NCBI GenBank assembly: GCA_018000455.1
Contig: JAGNJW010000018.1
Span: 1-64,000, forward strand
DNA length: 64,000 bases
Reading direction: 5' to 3'
Source: Acidobacteriota bacterium
GTDB taxonomy: Bacteria > Acidobacteriota > Vicinamibacteria > Vicinamibacterales > UBA2999
Of the stretch, positions 1,673 to 25,501 are shown one piece after another. The notes under the pieces are model-generated. The model was given only the letters and a program-made list of their open reading frames with translations, was not told the origin of the DNA and ran no database searches. Within the stretch, counting starts at the first letter, position 1; the number at the start of each line of letters is the position of its first letter. Made by a program: the position numbers and the translations under genes.

Positions 1673-3208
1673 TCAGTACCGGTAGTGCGCGGCCTTGTAG
1701 GGCCCATCCGGCGACACGCCGATGTAGTCGGCCTGCTCCTTCGTAAGCCGCGTGAGCTTCACGCCCAGCTTGTCGAGGTGCAGTCGCGCCACCATCTCAT
1801 CGAGCTTCTTGGGCAGGATGTAGACGCGCTTGGCGTCGTAGCTCGTCCCCGACAGCGTCGGTTTGCCGGTGGCGCTGAAGTGCAAATCGAGCTGTGCGAC
1901 GACCTGGTTGGTGAACGACGAGCTCATCACGAAGCTCGGGTGGCCGGTGGCGCAGCCGAGGTTCAGCAGGCGGCCCTCCGCCAGCACCAGCACCGAGTGC
2001 TCGGGACGCGACGGGGTGGCCTTGAACACCCACTCGTCGTACTGCGGCTTGATCTGCACCCGCGTGGCACCCGACTTCGGCAAGCCTGCCATGTCGATTT
2101 CGTTGTCGAAGTGGCCGATGTTGCCGATGATCGCTTTGTCCTTCATCCGCATCATGTGTTCGACGGTCAGGATGTTCTTGTTGCCCGTGGCCGTGATGAA
2201 GATGTCGGCCGTCTCGATCACCTCATCGAGCGTCGTCACCTGGTAGCCTTCCATCGCCGCCTGCAGCGCGCAGATCGGATCGATCTCGGTGATGATGACG
2301 CGGGCGCCCTGGCCCTTGAGCGCCTGCGCGCAGCCCTTGCCGACGTCGCCGTAGCCGAATACCACGGCCACCTTGGCGGACAGCATCACGTCGCTGGCGC
2401 GGTTCAATCCGTCGATGAGTGAGTGGCGGCAGCCGTAGAGGTTGTCGAACTTGCTCTTGGTCGCCGAGTCGTTGACGTTGATGGCCGGGAAAAGGAGCGT
2501 GTTCGCCGCCGTCATCTCGTAGAGGCGGTGCACGCCGGTCGTGGTCTCTTCGCTCACGCCCTTGATGCCGTCGGCCACCTTCGTCCACACGCCCGGGCGC
2601 GCCTTCAGCTCGCGGCCGAGCGTCTCGAGGATGACGCCCCACTCTTCGGGATCGCTCTCGGGCTTGAACGCGGGAATCTTGCCGCTGGCCTCGTACTCCT
2701 TGGCCTTGTGCACGAACAGCGTGGCGTCGCCGCCGTCGTCGACGATGAGCGAGGGGCCGGCGCCGTCGGGCCACACCAGCGCCTCTACCGTGCACCACCA
2801 GTACTCGGCCAGCGTCTCGCCCTTCCACGCAAACACCGGCGTGCCCTTCGGATTGGCCACCGTGCCGCCGGTTTCCGGACGGCCGACCACCACGGCTGCG
2901 GCCGCATGATCCTGCGTCGAGAAGATGTTGCAGCTCACCCAGCGCACATCCGCGCCGAGTTCGGTCAGCGTCTCGATGAGTACCGCCGTCTGCACCGTCA
3001 TGTGCAGCGAGCCCATGATTTTCGCGCCGGCCAGCGGCTTGGCGGCACCGTACTGCTTGCGCAGCGTCATCAGGCCCGGCATCTCGTGCTCGGCGAGGCG
3101 GATCTCCTGGCGGCCGAAATCGGCGAGCGAGAGGTCCTTGACCTTGAAGGGTTCGCGGCCCGCGTTCCTGGCAGCGTCGTAAGCGTGAACGGTCGTGGCG
3201 GTGGCCAT
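1673..3208 (-). CDS. ahcY: Adenosylhomocysteinase (S-adenosylhomocysteine hydrolase)
   Basis: Cytosolic NAD-dependent enzyme that splits S-adenosylhomocysteine into adenosine and homocysteine, removing the product inhibitor of methyltransferases. The 511-residue product starts [11 protein letters not shown], carries the Rossmann motif GYGDVGKG at about residue 285, substrate-site segments such as [14 protein letters not shown], and ends in the family's PYKAAHYRY tail. The length fits the long bacterial form that has an insertion in the catalytic domain. The start has a good ribosome site (AAGGAGAG) a few bases upstream. It lies 42 bases behind the ArsR/methyltransferase regulator on the same strand, so the two are probably one operon and the regulator probably responds to the enzyme's substrate. 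Confidence 0.97.
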
Positions 3209-3250
3209 GTGTCTCTCCTTGCTACAAGTGTTGGAAGTGTCGAACGTCGT

Positions 3251-4219
3251 CTATCTGGTCGCGACGGCGCGAAAGAGCGCCGGGCCCTTCGCCGTCGCCT
3301 CGGTCGGCAGGCCATCGAAGCGCACGTCGGTGAAGCCCGCGCTCTCCAGCCACCGGCGGATCTGCGGCTCGGCGAACCCGAGCCACACATGTCCCATCTG
3401 CTGCTGGTAGTCGCTGCGGTCGTGGGGCAGCATGTCCACGATGAGCACGCGGCCGCCCGGCTGCACGACGCGCCCGGCCTCCGCGATGGCGCGCCCGGGA
3501 TCGGGCACGTGGTGCAGCACCAGCGCGAGCACGGCGATGTCGAGCTGTCGATCGTCGACGGGCAGCGCTTCGAGGGCGCCGCGCCGGACCTCCACGTTGG
3601 CCATCGTCGCAAGGCGCGCGCGCGCAGCCGCCAGCATCTCGGCCGAAGCGTCGACGGCCACGACCTGCGCGACGTACGGCGCCAGCAGGGCACTCAGTTG
3701 CCCGGTGCCGCATCCGAGGTCGCCGACGCGGAGCCGCCGGTCGAGCATCGCCAGCGCGGCGTCGAACTGGAACTGCTGGCCGAAGAGCTCGGCGCGCAGG
3801 TGGTCCCACTGGCCTGACGCCGACGAGAAGAACTGGGCCGACTTGGAGCGGCGCTCGGCGAGCACCGATTCGGCGCGCCGCGCGTCCTGCTCGGCGGTGG
3901 AGGTCTCGCTCGCCTGCTCACGAATGAGCGGCCAGAGGCGCGCCGCCGGCTGGTCGAGCGACGTCGACAGGCCGTAGTAGCGAGACGTGCCGTCGCGGCG
4001 CGAGACGACCCAGCCGCCGTCGGCCAGGGTCTTGAGATGCCGGCTCACGGTCGACTGCGGCAACTGCAGCACCGCACATAGCTCGGTGACGGTGAATTCG
4101 TGCCGCTCGAGCAGGGTCAGGACACGGCACCGCACCGGGTCGGCGAGCGTCGTCATGTGCTCCAGCAACCGTGGCAGATTGGAGCGATCGGCGATGGCGA
4201 GGACGCGCTTCGTATTCAT
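3251..4219 (-). CDS. ArsR-family regulator fused to a SAM-dependent methyltransferase fold (SahR-like)
   Basis: 322 residues from the ATG at 4219. Residues about 15-90 form an ArsR winged helix (ADPVRCRVLTLL, then the recognition helix around QSTVSRHLKTL). Residues about 160-320 form a class I methyltransferase fold with the SAM-binding motif VGDLGCGTGQL at 165-175 and an acidic motif II (VVAVDAS). This is the architecture of SahR, the SAH-sensing repressor of methyl-cycle genes in Proteobacteria. Placement directly before ahcY supports the same role here; a real methyltransferase activity cannot be excluded. A TTG 39 bases further upstream is possible, but the ATG begins the conserved part. 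A paralog with the same architecture sits before metH at 20751. A 24-bp palindrome overlaps the start and suggests autoregulation. Confidence 0.88.
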   Translation of the reverse strand: MNTKRVLAIADRSNLPRLLEHMTTLADPVRCRVLTLLERHEFTVTELCAVLQLPQSTVSRHLKTLADGGWVVSRRDGTSRYYGLSTSLDQPAARLWPLIREQASETSTAEQDARRAESVLAERRSKSAQFFSSASGQWDHLRAELFGQQFQFDAALAMLDRRLRVGDLGCGTGQLSALLAPYVAQVVAVDASAEMLAAARARLATMANVEVRRGALEALPVDDRQLDIAVLALVLHHVPDPGRAIAEAGRVVQPGGRVLIVDMLPHDRSDYQQQMGHVWLGFAEPQIRRWLESAGFTDVRFDGLPTEATAKGPALFRAVATR

Positions 4220-4246
4220 CCGTAAATCCGGATGTAAGGATATATC
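4218..4246. promoter_or_regulatory. Putative operator/promoter of the ArsR/methyltransferase-ahcY operon
   Basis: Positions 4218-4241 form a 24-bp imperfect palindrome centred on ATCCGGAT. Each half reads ATCC-N-TA-N-ATCC towards the centre, and 10 of 12 positions pair. It covers the ATG at 4219. A second palindrome, GATATATC (4239-4246), touches it and could serve as the -10 box. ArsR proteins bind such AT-containing palindromes over promoters, so this is the best candidate site for the regulator encoded here. Confidence 0.5.
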
Positions 4247-4337
4247 GCCGCCGGCCAACTAGTCAAGGCGGCCCGCTCCAACCATTCCACCGTCCCGCGC
4301 CGTCTATATTCCCGACGCGTATACGCGGCAGGCACCT

Positions 4338-4682
4338 ATGCCTCAAGACCGGCTTCGTCCCGATCGTTTTCTGCCGCTGCCCCTGGCGTGGCTCGACATC
4401 CTCCTCGCGCTCTCCGCCGACGACCTGCATGGCTACGCCGTGATGCAGGCGGTGGCGCGGCAATCGGAGTCCACGCTGCACCCCGGCACCCTCTACCGCG
4501 CGCTGGCGCGCCTGCTCGAATCGCACCTGATCGTCGAACTCGACGAGCGCCCCTCGCCAGGCGATGACGAGCGGCGGCGCTACTACCGCGTCACGGCACT
4601 CGGACGCGCCGTCGCCCGCGCCGAGGCCGAACGGCTCGAGCGGATCGTGGCCCGCGCGCACGCCGCGCGTCTTTTCGCCTGA
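4338..4682 (+). CDS. PadR-family transcriptional regulator
   Basis: 114-residue winged-helix repressor. The core reads LDILLALSADDLHGYAVMQAV, then a wing segment LHPGTLYRALARLLESHLI and a C-terminal helix rich in Ala, Glu and Arg for dimerisation. This is the short PadR form. It lies five bases before the orphan permease at 4688, an arrangement repeated many times in acidobacterial genomes, so it most likely controls that permease. A possible -10 box (TATATT, 4305-4310) lies 27 bases upstream of the ATG. The ligand cannot be read from the sequence. Confidence 0.9.
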   Translation: MPQDRLRPDRFLPLPLAWLDILLALSADDLHGYAVMQAVARQSESTLHPGTLYRALARLLESHLIVELDERPSPGDDERRRYYRVTALGRAVARAEAERLERIVARAHAARLFA

Positions 4683-4687
4683 CCCTC

Positions 4688-7423
4688 ATGCCAGACACGG
4701 TCCCGCGCCTCGTCGCCTTGGCCCTCTTGGCCTATCCCGCGCAGTTCCGCGCCCGCTTCGGCAAGGACCTTGCCGCCGCGCTGGCCGAACGCTGGCACCG
4801 CCTCGACGGCACGGCCACACGCCTTCGCCTGGAGCAGCGCGCGCGCCTGGTCACGACGGCCATCGGATCTGGGCTGGCCGAACGCGGCGCGGCCATCCGG
4901 CGCCAGACCTGGCGCACCCATCGTCCGCATCTCTACCAGCCAACCGGGAGACATGCCTCCATGTGGGACCGCCTTCGTTTCGACGTCACGGCCGCCGTTC
5001 GCGGACTGGCCTCGGCACGCTCCTTCACCGCCCTGACCGTGCTCGCCCTGGCCCTCGGCCTCGGCGCCAACAGCGCCGTCTTCGCGGTCGTCAACGGTGT
5101 GCTGCTCAAGCCACTGCCCTACGCGCAGCCAGAACGCCTGGCCATGCTGTGGAGTGAAAACCCGCGGATGGGCGGCCAGACGAATCCGCTGTCGCCGGCC
5201 AACTTCGACGATCTGCGCCGCATGAGCCACTCGTTCGAGGCGCTCGAGTACGCGCTGTCGTTCAACGTCCGCGCCGCAATCGAGGGCCGGGAGGATCAAG
5301 GCGTCGTGCAGATCATGCGCGTGGGTCCCACGATGCTCGATCTGCTGGGCCTGCAGCCGCAGCTCGGGCGGTCGATGATGCCAGGCGACAGGGACGTGGC
5401 CGTGCTGAGCGATCACGCCTGGCGCGCCCGCTTCGGCGCCGACCCCTCGGTGGTCGGCCGGCGGATCGCCCTCAGCGGCAACGAAGCGCTCACGATCGTC
5501 GGCGTCGCGTCCGAGGCGTTCGTGTTCCCGCTCCGCGACATGCTGTGGCAGCCCGGCACGACGACCTCGGCGGCTGTCGACCTGTGGGCGCCGATGTTCT
5601 TCGAAGGGCCGCCCTTCGTCGACGCCAGTGGCAGCTACGTCCGCGCGTTCCATGCCTTGATGGCCGTCGGCCGCCTGAAGCCTGGGATCACCGCCGCCGC
5701 GGCCGATGCCGAGATGCGCGTGCACGCGCGGACGCTGGCAGAGCGCTATCCGGTCACCAACGACGGGTGGGGGGCGCGCGTCGTCGGGCTGCACGATCAG
5801 GCCACGGGAGCCGTGCGGATGGCGATGGTCGTGCTCCAGGCCGGCGCGCTGCTGCTGCTGCTCATGGCCGCCGTCAACGTGACCAACCTGGTCCTGGCGC
5901 GGTCACTGGCCCGGCAGCGCGAACTCGCCGTCCGCTCGGCGCTCGGCGCCAGCGCCCGCCAGCTCGTCCGGCAGGCGCTCATCGAGAGCCTGCTGCTCAC
6001 CGCCGTGGCACTGGCGCTGGCCACTCTGGCCGGCACCTGGATGGTGCGGGCGTTGGTCGCGCTGGCACCGGCCACCGTGCCACGGCTGGGCGAGGTGAGT
6101 GCCGACGCGACGACCTTCGCTGCCTCGACGGCACTCGCGCTCGTCATCGGCCTGGCTCTGGCCATCGTCCCGGCGTGGGTGGCGGCGCACGCCGACGTGC
6201 GCGGCGTGCTGCAGGACGGCTCGCGCGGCGTCGCCGGCGCCTCGCACGGCGGTCGCCGCCTGCGCACGATGTTGGTGGTGGCGGAAGTCGCGCTCGCGGT
6301 CGTCATCACCGTGCAGGCCGGACTGCTCTTCCGGAGCTTCTCGGCGCTGCTCGACACCGACCCGGGGTTCACGGCCGACCACCTGCTGACCCTGCAGATG
6401 ACGACCCCCGACCATCTGAAAGCCCTCGATGCGCGGCGCGCCTTCTACGAGGCATGGTTCACCCGCGTGGCCGCGCTTCCCGGCGTGAGCGCGGTGGGCG
6501 GCACGACGCGGATCCCCCTGGGCAGCTCGAACGTCACGACGTCGGTGCGTGTGGAGGGCAACACGGCGCCAGCCGCGGCACTCCCGGAAGTCGAGTTCCG
6601 GCGCGGTTCCCCCGACTACTTCCGCGCCATGGGCATGCCGATGCGGCGCGGCCGCGGGTTCCTGCCGAGCGAGCTGCCGAGCGATCCGCCGGTGGTGGTG
6701 ATCAACGAGACGATGGCGCGGCTGGTCTTCGCGAGCGCCGATCCGATCGGCCGCCGCCTCCAGACCGGACCGGACCCGGGCGGGACGTGGCTCACCGTGG
6801 TCGGCGTCGTTGGCGACGTGCATCACAGCTCGCTCGAGGCGGCTCCACCGCCCGAGCTCTACCTGAACATGCTGCACAACCCTGCAACTGCGCCGTTCAT
6901 GGCCGTGCGCACGACCGGCGATCCGCTGGCCCTCGTGGAGACACTGCGAGCGGTGGCCACAGATCTCGACCCGCGCCTGGCGCTCTACGACATCCGCACG
7001 ATGAGCGACTTGCGTCGCGCATCCCTGGCGGAGCGCCAGTTCGTCCTCACCCTCGTGGCGGGGCTCGGTGTTCTCGCGCTCGCGCTGGCCGTGGTCGGCG
7101 TCTACGGCGTGCTGGCGCTCGTCGTCGCCGAGCGCACCTCAGAACTGGGCCTGCGCATGGCCCTCGGCGCCGCGCCGGCGTCGGTCATTGCACTCGTCAT
7201 CGGCCAGGCGCTGCGCCTGACCGGCATCGGCGTGGCCCTGGGCCTCGTGTTCGCGGTTGGCGCCGCGACCGCCACGCGGAGCGTGCTGGTCGGCGTCACG
7301 GCCTACGATCCGCTGACCTATGTGGCGGTGCCGCTGCTGATCGTCCTCGGCGCCACCATTGCCGCCGTGGCGCCGGCCCGGCGCGCCCTCGGCGTCGACC
7401 CGGCGACGGTGTTGCAGGCCTGA
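4688..7423 (+). CDS. Orphan FtsX/MacB-type ABC permease (ADOP family) with permease-prefix N-terminus
   Basis: 911-residue inner-membrane protein. Residues 1 to about 90 are a soluble prefix (LLAYPAQFRARFGKDLA) typical of permeases paired with PadR regulators. The core then has a first membrane helix (SFTALTVLALALGLGANSAVF), a periplasmic MacB-like domain, three helices with the FtsX signature VTNLVLARSLARQRELAVRSALGAS, and a second periplasmic domain plus helices ending ALGVDPATVLQA. That is two fused permease halves. No ATPase gene is adjacent, which defines the 'orphan' class. MacB relatives export peptides or lipoproteins or act as mechanotransmitters; the substrate here is unknown. It is the likely target of the PadR regulator just upstream. 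Confidence 0.92.
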   Translation: MPDTVPRLVALALLAYPAQFRARFGKDLAAALAERWHRLDGTATRLRLEQRARLVTTAIGSGLAERGAAIRRQTWRTHRPHLYQPTGRHASMWDRLRFDVTAAVRGLASARSFTALTVLALALGLGANSAVFAVVNGVLLKPLPYAQPERLAMLWSENPRMGGQTNPLSPANFDDLRRMSHSFEALEYALSFNVRAAIEGREDQGVVQIMRVGPTMLDLLGLQPQLGRSMMPGDRDVAVLSDHAWRARFGADPSVVGRRIALSGNEALTIVGVASEAFVFPLRDMLWQPGTTTSAAVDLWAPMFFEGPPFVDASGSYVRAFHALMAVGRLKPGITAAAADAEMRVHARTLAERYPVTNDGWGARVVGLHDQATGAVRMAMVVLQAGALLLLLMAAVNVTNLVLARSLARQRELAVRSALGASARQLVRQALIESLLLTAVALALATLAGTWMVRALVALAPATVPRLGEVSADATTFAASTALALVIGLALAIVPAWVAAHADVRGVLQDGSRGVAGASHGGRRLRTMLVVAEVALAVVITVQAGLLFRSFSALLDTDPGFTADHLLTLQMTTPDHLKALDARRAFYEAWFTRVAALPGVSAVGGTTRIPLGSSNVTTSVRVEGNTAPAAALPEVEFRRGSPDYFRAMGMPMRRGRGFLPSELPSDPPVVVINETMARLVFASADPIGRRLQTGPDPGGTWLTVVGVVGDVHHSSLEAAPPPELYLNMLHNPATAPFMAVRTTGDPLALVETLRAVATDLDPRLALYDIRTMSDLRRASLAERQFVLTLVAGLGVLALALAVVGVYGVLALVVAERTSELGLRMALGAAPASVIALVIGQALRLTGIGVALGLVFAVGAATATRSVLVGVTAYDPLTYVAVPLLIVLGATIAAVAPARRALGVDPATVLQA

Positions 7424-16290: not shown

Positions 16291-16412
16291 CAGCCGCGGC
16301 GACGCGACATCTTCCTCCGGCTCACCTTCGATCCGGCATGCCGGGTCGACTCTGCTGCCGAGGAGATAGTGTCCCGCCGGCAAGGGGGACCGGCAGAACT
16401 GCCGGTCCTCAG
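16291..16412. repeat. 122-bp interspersed repeat, copy 1
   Basis: Same length as copy 2 at 17200-17321, no gaps, 11 mismatches (about 91% identical), same orientation. It contains the palindrome CCGGCATGCCGG and a hairpin at 16387-16408 (GGACCGGCAG, AA, CTGCCGGTCC). It lies between the ends of speA and the convergent short-chain dehydrogenase gene, where the hairpin could also help stop transcription. The right terminal inverted repeat seen in copy 2 is not recognisable here. Confidence 0.85.
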
Positions 16413-17196: not shown

Positions 17197-17360
17197 CCGC
17201 AGCCGCGACGACGCGGCATCTTCCTCCGGCTCACCTTCGGTCCGGCATGCCGGGTCGACTCTGCTTCAGAAGAGATGGTGACCCGCCTGCAAGGAGGACC
17301 GGCAGAACTGCTGGTCCTCAGAGTTCGCCGTCGGAAGATGCCACGCCGCCGCGGCTGCGG
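17197..17360. repeat. 164-bp inverted-repeat element containing copy 2 of the 122-bp repeat
   Basis: The ends 17197-17224 and 17333-17360 are inverted copies of each other (25 of 28 positions match). Inside, 17200-17321 is the repeat also found at 16291-16412. The inner hairpin at 17296-17317 keeps pairing although one base differs from copy 1, because the C-to-T change gives a G-U pair. Size and structure suggest a non-autonomous mobile element (MITE-like) or a REP-type intergenic repeat. It sits upstream of the short-chain dehydrogenase start. Confidence 0.75.
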
Positions 17361-20722: not shown

Positions 20723-20754
20723 TCATATCATTAATTGTGGATTCGTCGATATGA
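20723..20754. promoter_or_regulatory. Putative operator of the ArsR/methyltransferase-metH operon
   Basis: TCATATC (20723-20729) and GATATGA (20748-20754) form a perfect 7-base inverted repeat with 18 bases between. The right arm overlaps the ATG at 20751 and the AT-rich interior includes ATTAAT. The position over the start codon parallels the palindrome at 4218-4241, although the sequences differ, so the two paralogous regulators may recognise different sites. Confidence 0.5.

Positions 20755-21754: not shown

Positions 21755-21758
<4 letters not shown>
20751..21758 (+). CDS. ArsR-family regulator fused to a SAM-dependent methyltransferase fold (SahR-like), metH-linked
   Basis: 335 residues. 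The N-terminal winged helix spans about residues 5-70 ([13 protein letters not shown], recognition helix [19 protein letters not shown]). The C-terminal methyltransferase fold begins near residue 135, with SAM motif [11 protein letters not shown] at 151-161, VVGVDRS, and the post-motif [17 protein letters not shown]. Architecture and domain order match the regulator at 3251-4219, but the two are quite diverged. Its TGA overlaps the metH ATG (ATGA, 21755-21758), a tight coupling that points to control of methionine synthase. In Proteobacteria the SahR repressor of this architecture releases DNA when SAH rises; the same mechanism is inferred here. Methyltransferase activity remains an alternative. 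Confidence 0.88.

Positions 21759-25501
<3,743 letters not shown>

Follow-up and report, generated by a model that had tools for sequence, protein, structure and literature searches.

SahR is an ArsR-family regulator that responds to SAH and is described from Desulfovibrio, Alphaproteobacteria and some Gammaproteobacteria. SAH is a toxic by-product of methylation that is recycled by the ahcY product. The gammaproteobacterial SahR and SamR sites have a common core of ATC and GAT separated by 10 nt (ATC-N10-GAT), and the SamR site is a 24-bp palindrome (Leyn et al., PMC4239095). The same authors take regulons with SAM-cycle genes such as ahcY as a mark of SAH sensing and regulons without ahcY as a mark of SAM sensing (PMC4239095); the effector of SamR in Xanthomonadales is unsettled and is argued there to be SAM. 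Binding by Desulfovibrio SahR is reported to be SAH-dependent (work cited in PMC8877191). ArsRM of Brevundimonas sp. M20, which heads a metF-HMT-metH operon, is reported to methylate As(III) and to bind its own promoter (PMC10190100). ArsRM is probably a SahR relative, as it occupies the place in the gene order that SahR has in Alphaproteobacteria. No report of SahR outside Proteobacteria was found in the open-access literature searched.

The window analysed here, a stretch of 64,000 nucleotides, carries two ArsR-methyltransferase fusion genes: one precedes ahcY (SahR-like; P1) and the other precedes metH (SamR-like; P2). An earlier note on this DNA had taken it to be acidobacterial, and the nearest relatives agree: they are labelled 'Acidobacteria bacterium' (86% identical protein), and a family-level relative is named Vicinamibacterales. 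Judged by their sequences, P1 and P2 are regulators of the SahR/SamR kind outside Proteobacteria, the new part being a conserved pair of predicted dedicated regulators.

The ahcY-linked fusion gene and its operon

P1 is a predicted protein of 322 aa encoded at 3251..4219 on the minus strand. The open frame extends over 3251-4258 (minus strand), and the ATG at 4219-4217 is the start codon that agrees with the relatives of P1, in which the start codon most often lies 14 or 18 bases after the operator core described below begins. The earlier note had placed the gene at 3251-4246; that start was rejected, as 4246 is a GAT in the P1 frame and not a start codon. Its description of the product as an ArsR helix-turn-helix (HTH) joined to a SAM-binding fold was confirmed by Pfam, with matches to HTH_5 (E-value: 9e-12) and HTH_20 (E-value: 7e-12) in the N-terminal part and to Methyltransf_11 (E-value: 8e-25) in the methyltransferase domain. 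An AlphaFold2 model of P1 (pLDDT 93), built with an input alignment of 50 relatives from the fetched loci, consists of an ArsR fold, a long helical linker and a class I methyltransferase fold. When the C-terminal domain was compared with known structures using VIA-align, the best match was 1vl5 (Z 21.9, rmsd 1.7 over 158 residues), and many SAH- or SAM-bound enzymes were among the matches. The SAM/SAH-pocket residues D167, G169, C170, G171, G173 and D190 show no variation among 50 P1 proteins. A search of solved structures with P1 recovered separate domains only and no fused relative. Full-length Foldseek matches (Rv2258c with SAH, TM 0.43) were discarded as a guide to the domain arrangement, given that there was no global superposition (rmsd about 20).

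The downstream gene of the operon is ahcY, encoding S-adenosylhomocysteine hydrolase (1673..3208, minus strand; TIGR00936, 580 bits against a cut-off of 497.6). P1 ends at 3251 and ahcY starts at 3208, which gives the 42-bp gap reported in the earlier note. In all 78 P1-type loci recovered (including a few duplicate records of one genome), the regulator is followed by ahcY on the same strand. A Shine-Dalgarno sequence, AAGGAG, can be read before ahcY (3215..3220, minus strand); similar motifs were found upstream of ahcY in 73/76 loci and upstream of the regulator in 2/76. No Rfam family matched anywhere in the 64-kb window at gathering score, so neither ahcY nor metH showed a SAH or SAM riboswitch upstream.

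Several other features were seen in the window. A PadR regulator gene followed by a MacB/FtsX-type permease gene (4338-7423) is divergent from the sahR-like gene; the NCBIfam match of this PadR regulator is to an acidobacterial paralog family and falls below the cut-off. A long plus-strand open reading frame at 110-1417 has a repetitive, Arg/Thr/Leu-rich translation, which suggests a tandem-repeat stretch, perhaps with coding on the other strand. A short-chain dehydrogenase gene is flanked on either side by near-identical 24-bp palindromes, GGGACCGGCAGAACTGCCGGTCCT (16386-16409) and AGGACCGGCAGAACTGCTGGTCCT (17295-17318).

The predicted P1 operator and its conservation

The predicted P1 operator (4218..4241) is 24 bp long and has the layout ATC-N5-ATC-NN-GAT-N5-GAT. 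It can be read as two ATC-N10-GAT cores that overlap by 8 bp, the right one (on the gene strand) being the conserved one. This 16-bp core operator, ATCCGGATNNACGGAT (also given as ATCCGGATTTACGGAT), occupies 4218..4233 on the minus strand. A -10 box, TATCCT (4237..4242, minus strand), identified from the sequence and from conserved columns in relatives, overlaps the outer half-site such that the outer ATC (4239-4241) falls within it. The -35 box is TTGACT (4261..4266, minus strand), and 47/76 relatives have TTGAC at a matching distance, 31-33 bp before the core. Across the 77 usable loci, core copies sit just downstream of a -10 box upstream of the regulator, and in nearly all relatives the core separates the -10 box from the start codon.

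The earlier note had drawn attention to a 24-bp palindrome at 4218-4241 over the start codon. The palindrome is real, with pairing at 10/12 positions, but the start codon (ATG 4219-4217) is overlapped at its edge only, and it is the 16-bp core that is kept throughout the order. Taken alone the palindrome is modestly unusual and constitutes weak evidence, because the 64-kb window contains 18 instances of a 24-mer paired at 10/12 positions and such a 24-mer arises in 0.7% of shuffles of the local 158 bp. The layout ATC-N5-ATC-NN-GAT-N5-GAT has its only match in the window at 4218-4241, and the palindrome pattern ATCCNTANATCCGGATNTANGGAT, with three mismatches or fewer allowed, has a single match in the window, which is also its only match genome-wide. 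When the 5.19 Mb of this genome were scanned, the exact core 16-mer was found once; the matches with two mismatches include a copy within this operator that overlaps it. No P1-type site was identified in this genome upstream of metK or of a second ahcY-family gene (L316, G000:C24:2404-3603; 512 bits, over the cut-off).

For conservation, 149 genomes of the order Vicinamibacterales were sampled, of which 116 encode one or both fusions and 89 the ahcY-type fusion. The check proposed in the earlier note was whether the palindrome and the ahcY neighbourhood are kept in related genomes. Both are conserved: ahcY is present at 78/78 loci, and the core matches ATCCGGATNNACGGAT at 12 or more of its 14 specified positions in 76/77 sites (at least 11/14 in 77/77 usable loci, most of them 14/14). 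The exact 16-mer occurs as 63 copies in 60/149 genomes, and the reversed pattern does not occur. An ahcY-type regulator is encoded by 58/60 genomes with the exact 16-mer and by 31/89 without it (Fisher p=7e-16). About 58 of the 63 copies lie directly before P1; the five located elsewhere are in G089 (two copies), G123, G052 and G043, and the one in G052 (L197) is near a weakly related gene.

The published ATC-N10-GAT consensus holds at the P1 site and at nearly all acidobacterial relatives. The outer left ATC is exact in 28/72 sites from the order and, elsewhere in the phylum, in 12/23 relatives belonging to other families. A third fusion type, divergent from ahcY and with a 24-bp operator between the two genes or nearby, occurs in other acidobacterial families; the full 24-bp layout is present in several distant regulators (L260-L263, L266, L267, L270) and so reaches other acidobacterial classes. 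Three metH-linked fusions from the Pseudomonadota sample (L293, L302, L304) share it at sites of the form ATCTCTATATCGCGATAGGTAGAT. Another case outside Proteobacteria is Leptospira interrogans (NZ_CP043881.1, 131539-138435), where a sahR-like gene, ahcY, a 4Fe-4S protein gene and metH lie in a row downstream of a perfect 22-bp palindrome, GATATCAAGATATCTTGATATC. As the layout recurs in distant acidobacterial and Pseudomonadota regulators, the 24-bp span is a meaningful unit and more than a coincidence at a start codon. The idea that its outer 8 bp are merely the -10 box was dropped, since this ATC is found again in further families of the phylum, in the distant acidobacterial regulators and at the three Pseudomonadota metH sites.

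The metH-linked fusion gene and kinship of the two regulators

The earlier note overlooked a metH-linked paralog, P2, and its operator within the same window. P2 (20751..21758, plus strand; 335 aa) has the Pfam domains of an ArsR-methyltransferase fusion and is 39% identical to P1 over 33-309. It overlaps by 4 bp with metH, which encodes a cobalamin-dependent methionine synthase (21755..25501, plus strand; PRK09490/TIGR02082, far over cut-off): the metH ATG overlaps the P2 stop codon (ATGA). Downstream of P2-type genes, metH is the next gene at 39/40 loci, and at the fortieth the contig ends. The predicted P2 operator, ATCATTAATTGTGGATTCGTCGAT (20727..20750, plus strand), abuts the P2 start codon. 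At P2-type sites the outer ATC (37/38) and GAT (35/38) are conserved and the inner part is ATGTAGAT-like. The exact form ATGTAGATTNNTNGATNTG is present once each in 43/149 genomes, with no reversed matches, and the genus form has one exact match in this genome. Where both genes are on one contig, 23/27 P1/P2 pairs are divergent; the two lie 0.8-33 kb apart, and here the distance is 16.5 kb. From the two operator surveys it follows that P1 and P2 carry distinct, non-overlapping operator codes, and the pair recurs across the order, with one predicted dedicated operator for each regulator.

The P2-type motif was absent upstream of metK, and weaker P2 sites may exist in this genome beside the one match to the genus pattern. 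The metK gene (L317, G000:C11; gene at 194961-196082, minus strand) is preceded by a leader of some 150 nt. This leader has a good promoter (TTGACA..GATACT) and forms strong hairpins, and it ends in a terminator-like GCCCGC..GGCGGGCTTTTT ahead of the start codon. It matches no Rfam family and is possibly an uncatalogued metK leader.

To examine kinship, 120 proteins were placed in a quick IQ-TREE tree (midpoint root, SH-aLRT support only and no bootstrap), in which SahR is represented by alphaproteobacterial proteins and the SamR type by metH-linked Pseudomonadota fusions. The P1 clade (SH-aLRT 97) includes relatives from across the phylum together with assemblies labelled Chloroflexi, Latescibacterota and Phycisphaerales, and the main proteobacterial clade (SH-aLRT 99), which is largely metF/metH-linked, stands apart from it. 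In this tree, the P1 type is resolved as a deep clade separate from alphaproteobacterial SahR. The P2 clade (SH-aLRT 99) belongs to a larger group (SH-aLRT 96) with the three metH-linked fusions from Pseudomonadota and eight further acidobacterial proteins. Because of their metH link and 24-bp site, we infer that the three Pseudomonadota fusions are SamR-like proteins from Gammaproteobacteria or, more narrowly, Xanthomonadales. Since P1 and P2 are placed in different clades, they do not stem from a recent duplication.

Proposed function and comparison with known systems

We consider it likely that P1 acts locally, repressing both itself and ahcY in the sahR-like/ahcY operon and most likely being released by SAH, and that P2 plays the same part for metH. 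A P1 dimer would bind the operator at 4218-4241 through its ArsR domain and block transcription initiation, as the operator coincides in part with the -10 box, with the start codon (at its edge) and with the presumed transcription start. The C-terminal methyltransferase-fold domain would most likely bind SAH; a build-up of SAH would then release P1, allowing ahcY to be expressed and SAH to be hydrolysed. We infer SAH as the ligand, and the direction of the response, by analogy with SahR: ahcY is the target, and the criterion of Leyn et al. (PMC4239095) favours SAH for such a regulator. A single transcript could yield little repressor and much AhcY enzyme, given that the regulator lacks a Shine-Dalgarno sequence and ahcY has a strong one. 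P2 is predicted to repress metH at its own operator as P1 does ahcY, so that two steps of the SAM cycle would each have a dedicated repressor. More tentatively, it is conceivable that in many Vicinamibacterales P1 reads SAH and opens ahcY while P2 reads SAM, or another range of SAH, and opens metH; the SAM/SAH ratio would then be metered by two insulated repressors, with a shared 24-bp grammar split into two non-overlapping codes.

The same repressor and operator could instead respond to SAM (as a co-repressor) or to another SAM-cycle compound. A methyltransferase pocket would take either SAM or SAH, the Xanthomonadales SamR effector that has been argued to be SAM (PMC4239095) provides a precedent, and P1 falls in its own clade; its position outside the alphaproteobacterial SahR clade means that its ligand may differ from that of SahR. 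However, the ahcY operon headed by P1 has the genome's sole exact P1 site and ahcY regulons mark SAH sensing (PMC4239095), so we regard a ligand other than SAH as rather unlikely. It is also possible that the P1 methyltransferase domain is catalytic, because it keeps the SAM motif and a related proteobacterial fusion is reported to methylate arsenite (PMC10190100). The stronger proposal, that P1 is a working methyltransferase such as an ArsRM-type arsenite methylase with autoregulation secondary, draws on that fusion's reported As(III) methylation and own-promoter binding (PMC10190100) and on the presence of ArsM structures among the fold matches (5evj, Z 19.1; 4fr0, Z 18.2). It is improbable, as P1 reaches 65 bits with the arsenite methyltransferase family, whose cut-off is 263, and its neighbour is always ahcY. 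Furthermore, of its three cysteines (31, 48 and 170) only 48 and 170 are conserved, and because these lie in the HTH and the SAM motif, respectively, no separate arsenite site is seen.

There is very little likelihood that P1 is a metal- or metalloid-sensing ArsR regulator that sits before ahcY by chance. Its N-terminal part does match the NCBIfam model HTH_metalloreg (68.5 bits against a cut-off of 55), but this model describes a broad subfamily, P1 is without the conserved metal-binding cysteine pair, and the ahcY neighbourhood is kept across the order and beyond. Least probable of all is that the palindrome arose by chance or forms an mRNA hairpin and is not an operator. Its position at the start codon and the 18 comparable 24-mers in the window would fit such an origin, yet the sequence itself, beyond its pairing, is conserved in 76/77 relatives at a fixed distance from the promoter, is unique genome-wide, is tied to the presence of P1 and fits the SahR/SamR grammar (PMC4239095).

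If P1 and P2 are dedicated repressors as proposed, a design described for SahR and SamR in Proteobacteria would now extend throughout a large phylum whose members are mostly uncultured soil bacteria. There it would be divided between two regulators, each with its own task and its own operator, which together would form a natural pair of insulated metabolite switches. The pair offers a test of methyltransferase-fold sensing (SAH or SAM), a question that is open for SamR. A further suggestion is that the SahR/SamR-type family may include fusions described as arsenite methylases. Like ArsRM of Brevundimonas sp. M20, P1 is an ArsR-methyltransferase fusion at the head of a methionine-cycle operon with a predicted site in its own promoter; unlike ArsRM, neither an arsenic context nor an arsenite site is seen at P1.

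P1 resembles SahR in combining an ArsR domain with a methyltransferase-fold domain, and proteobacterial relatives of this same make-up were recovered, in keeping with the architecture that the earlier note ascribed to proteobacterial SahR. It is also similar in its predicted targets (ahcY and the regulator itself, the only ones by exact site in the genome), in its predicted palindromic operator with an ATC-N10-GAT core and in its predicted autoregulation. It differs in its phylum, Acidobacteriota, in having 27-40% identity to SahR, in the letters of its operator (ATCCGGATNNACGGAT, in contrast to the ATAAAGATATCTTTAT type upstream of alphaproteobacterial genes) and in a regulon of apparently one operon, whereas SahR takes ahcY, metH, metF and metK together. 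P2 is SamR-like in its link to metH, in its 24-bp palindrome with ATC-N10-GAT and in grouping with metH-linked fusions that we take to be gammaproteobacterial, whose ATCTCTATATCGCGATAGGTAGAT sites share the layout of 4218-4241. In contrast to the broad regulon of SamR, P2 has one clear site per genome, and P1 guards ahcY, a gene absent from SamR regulons.
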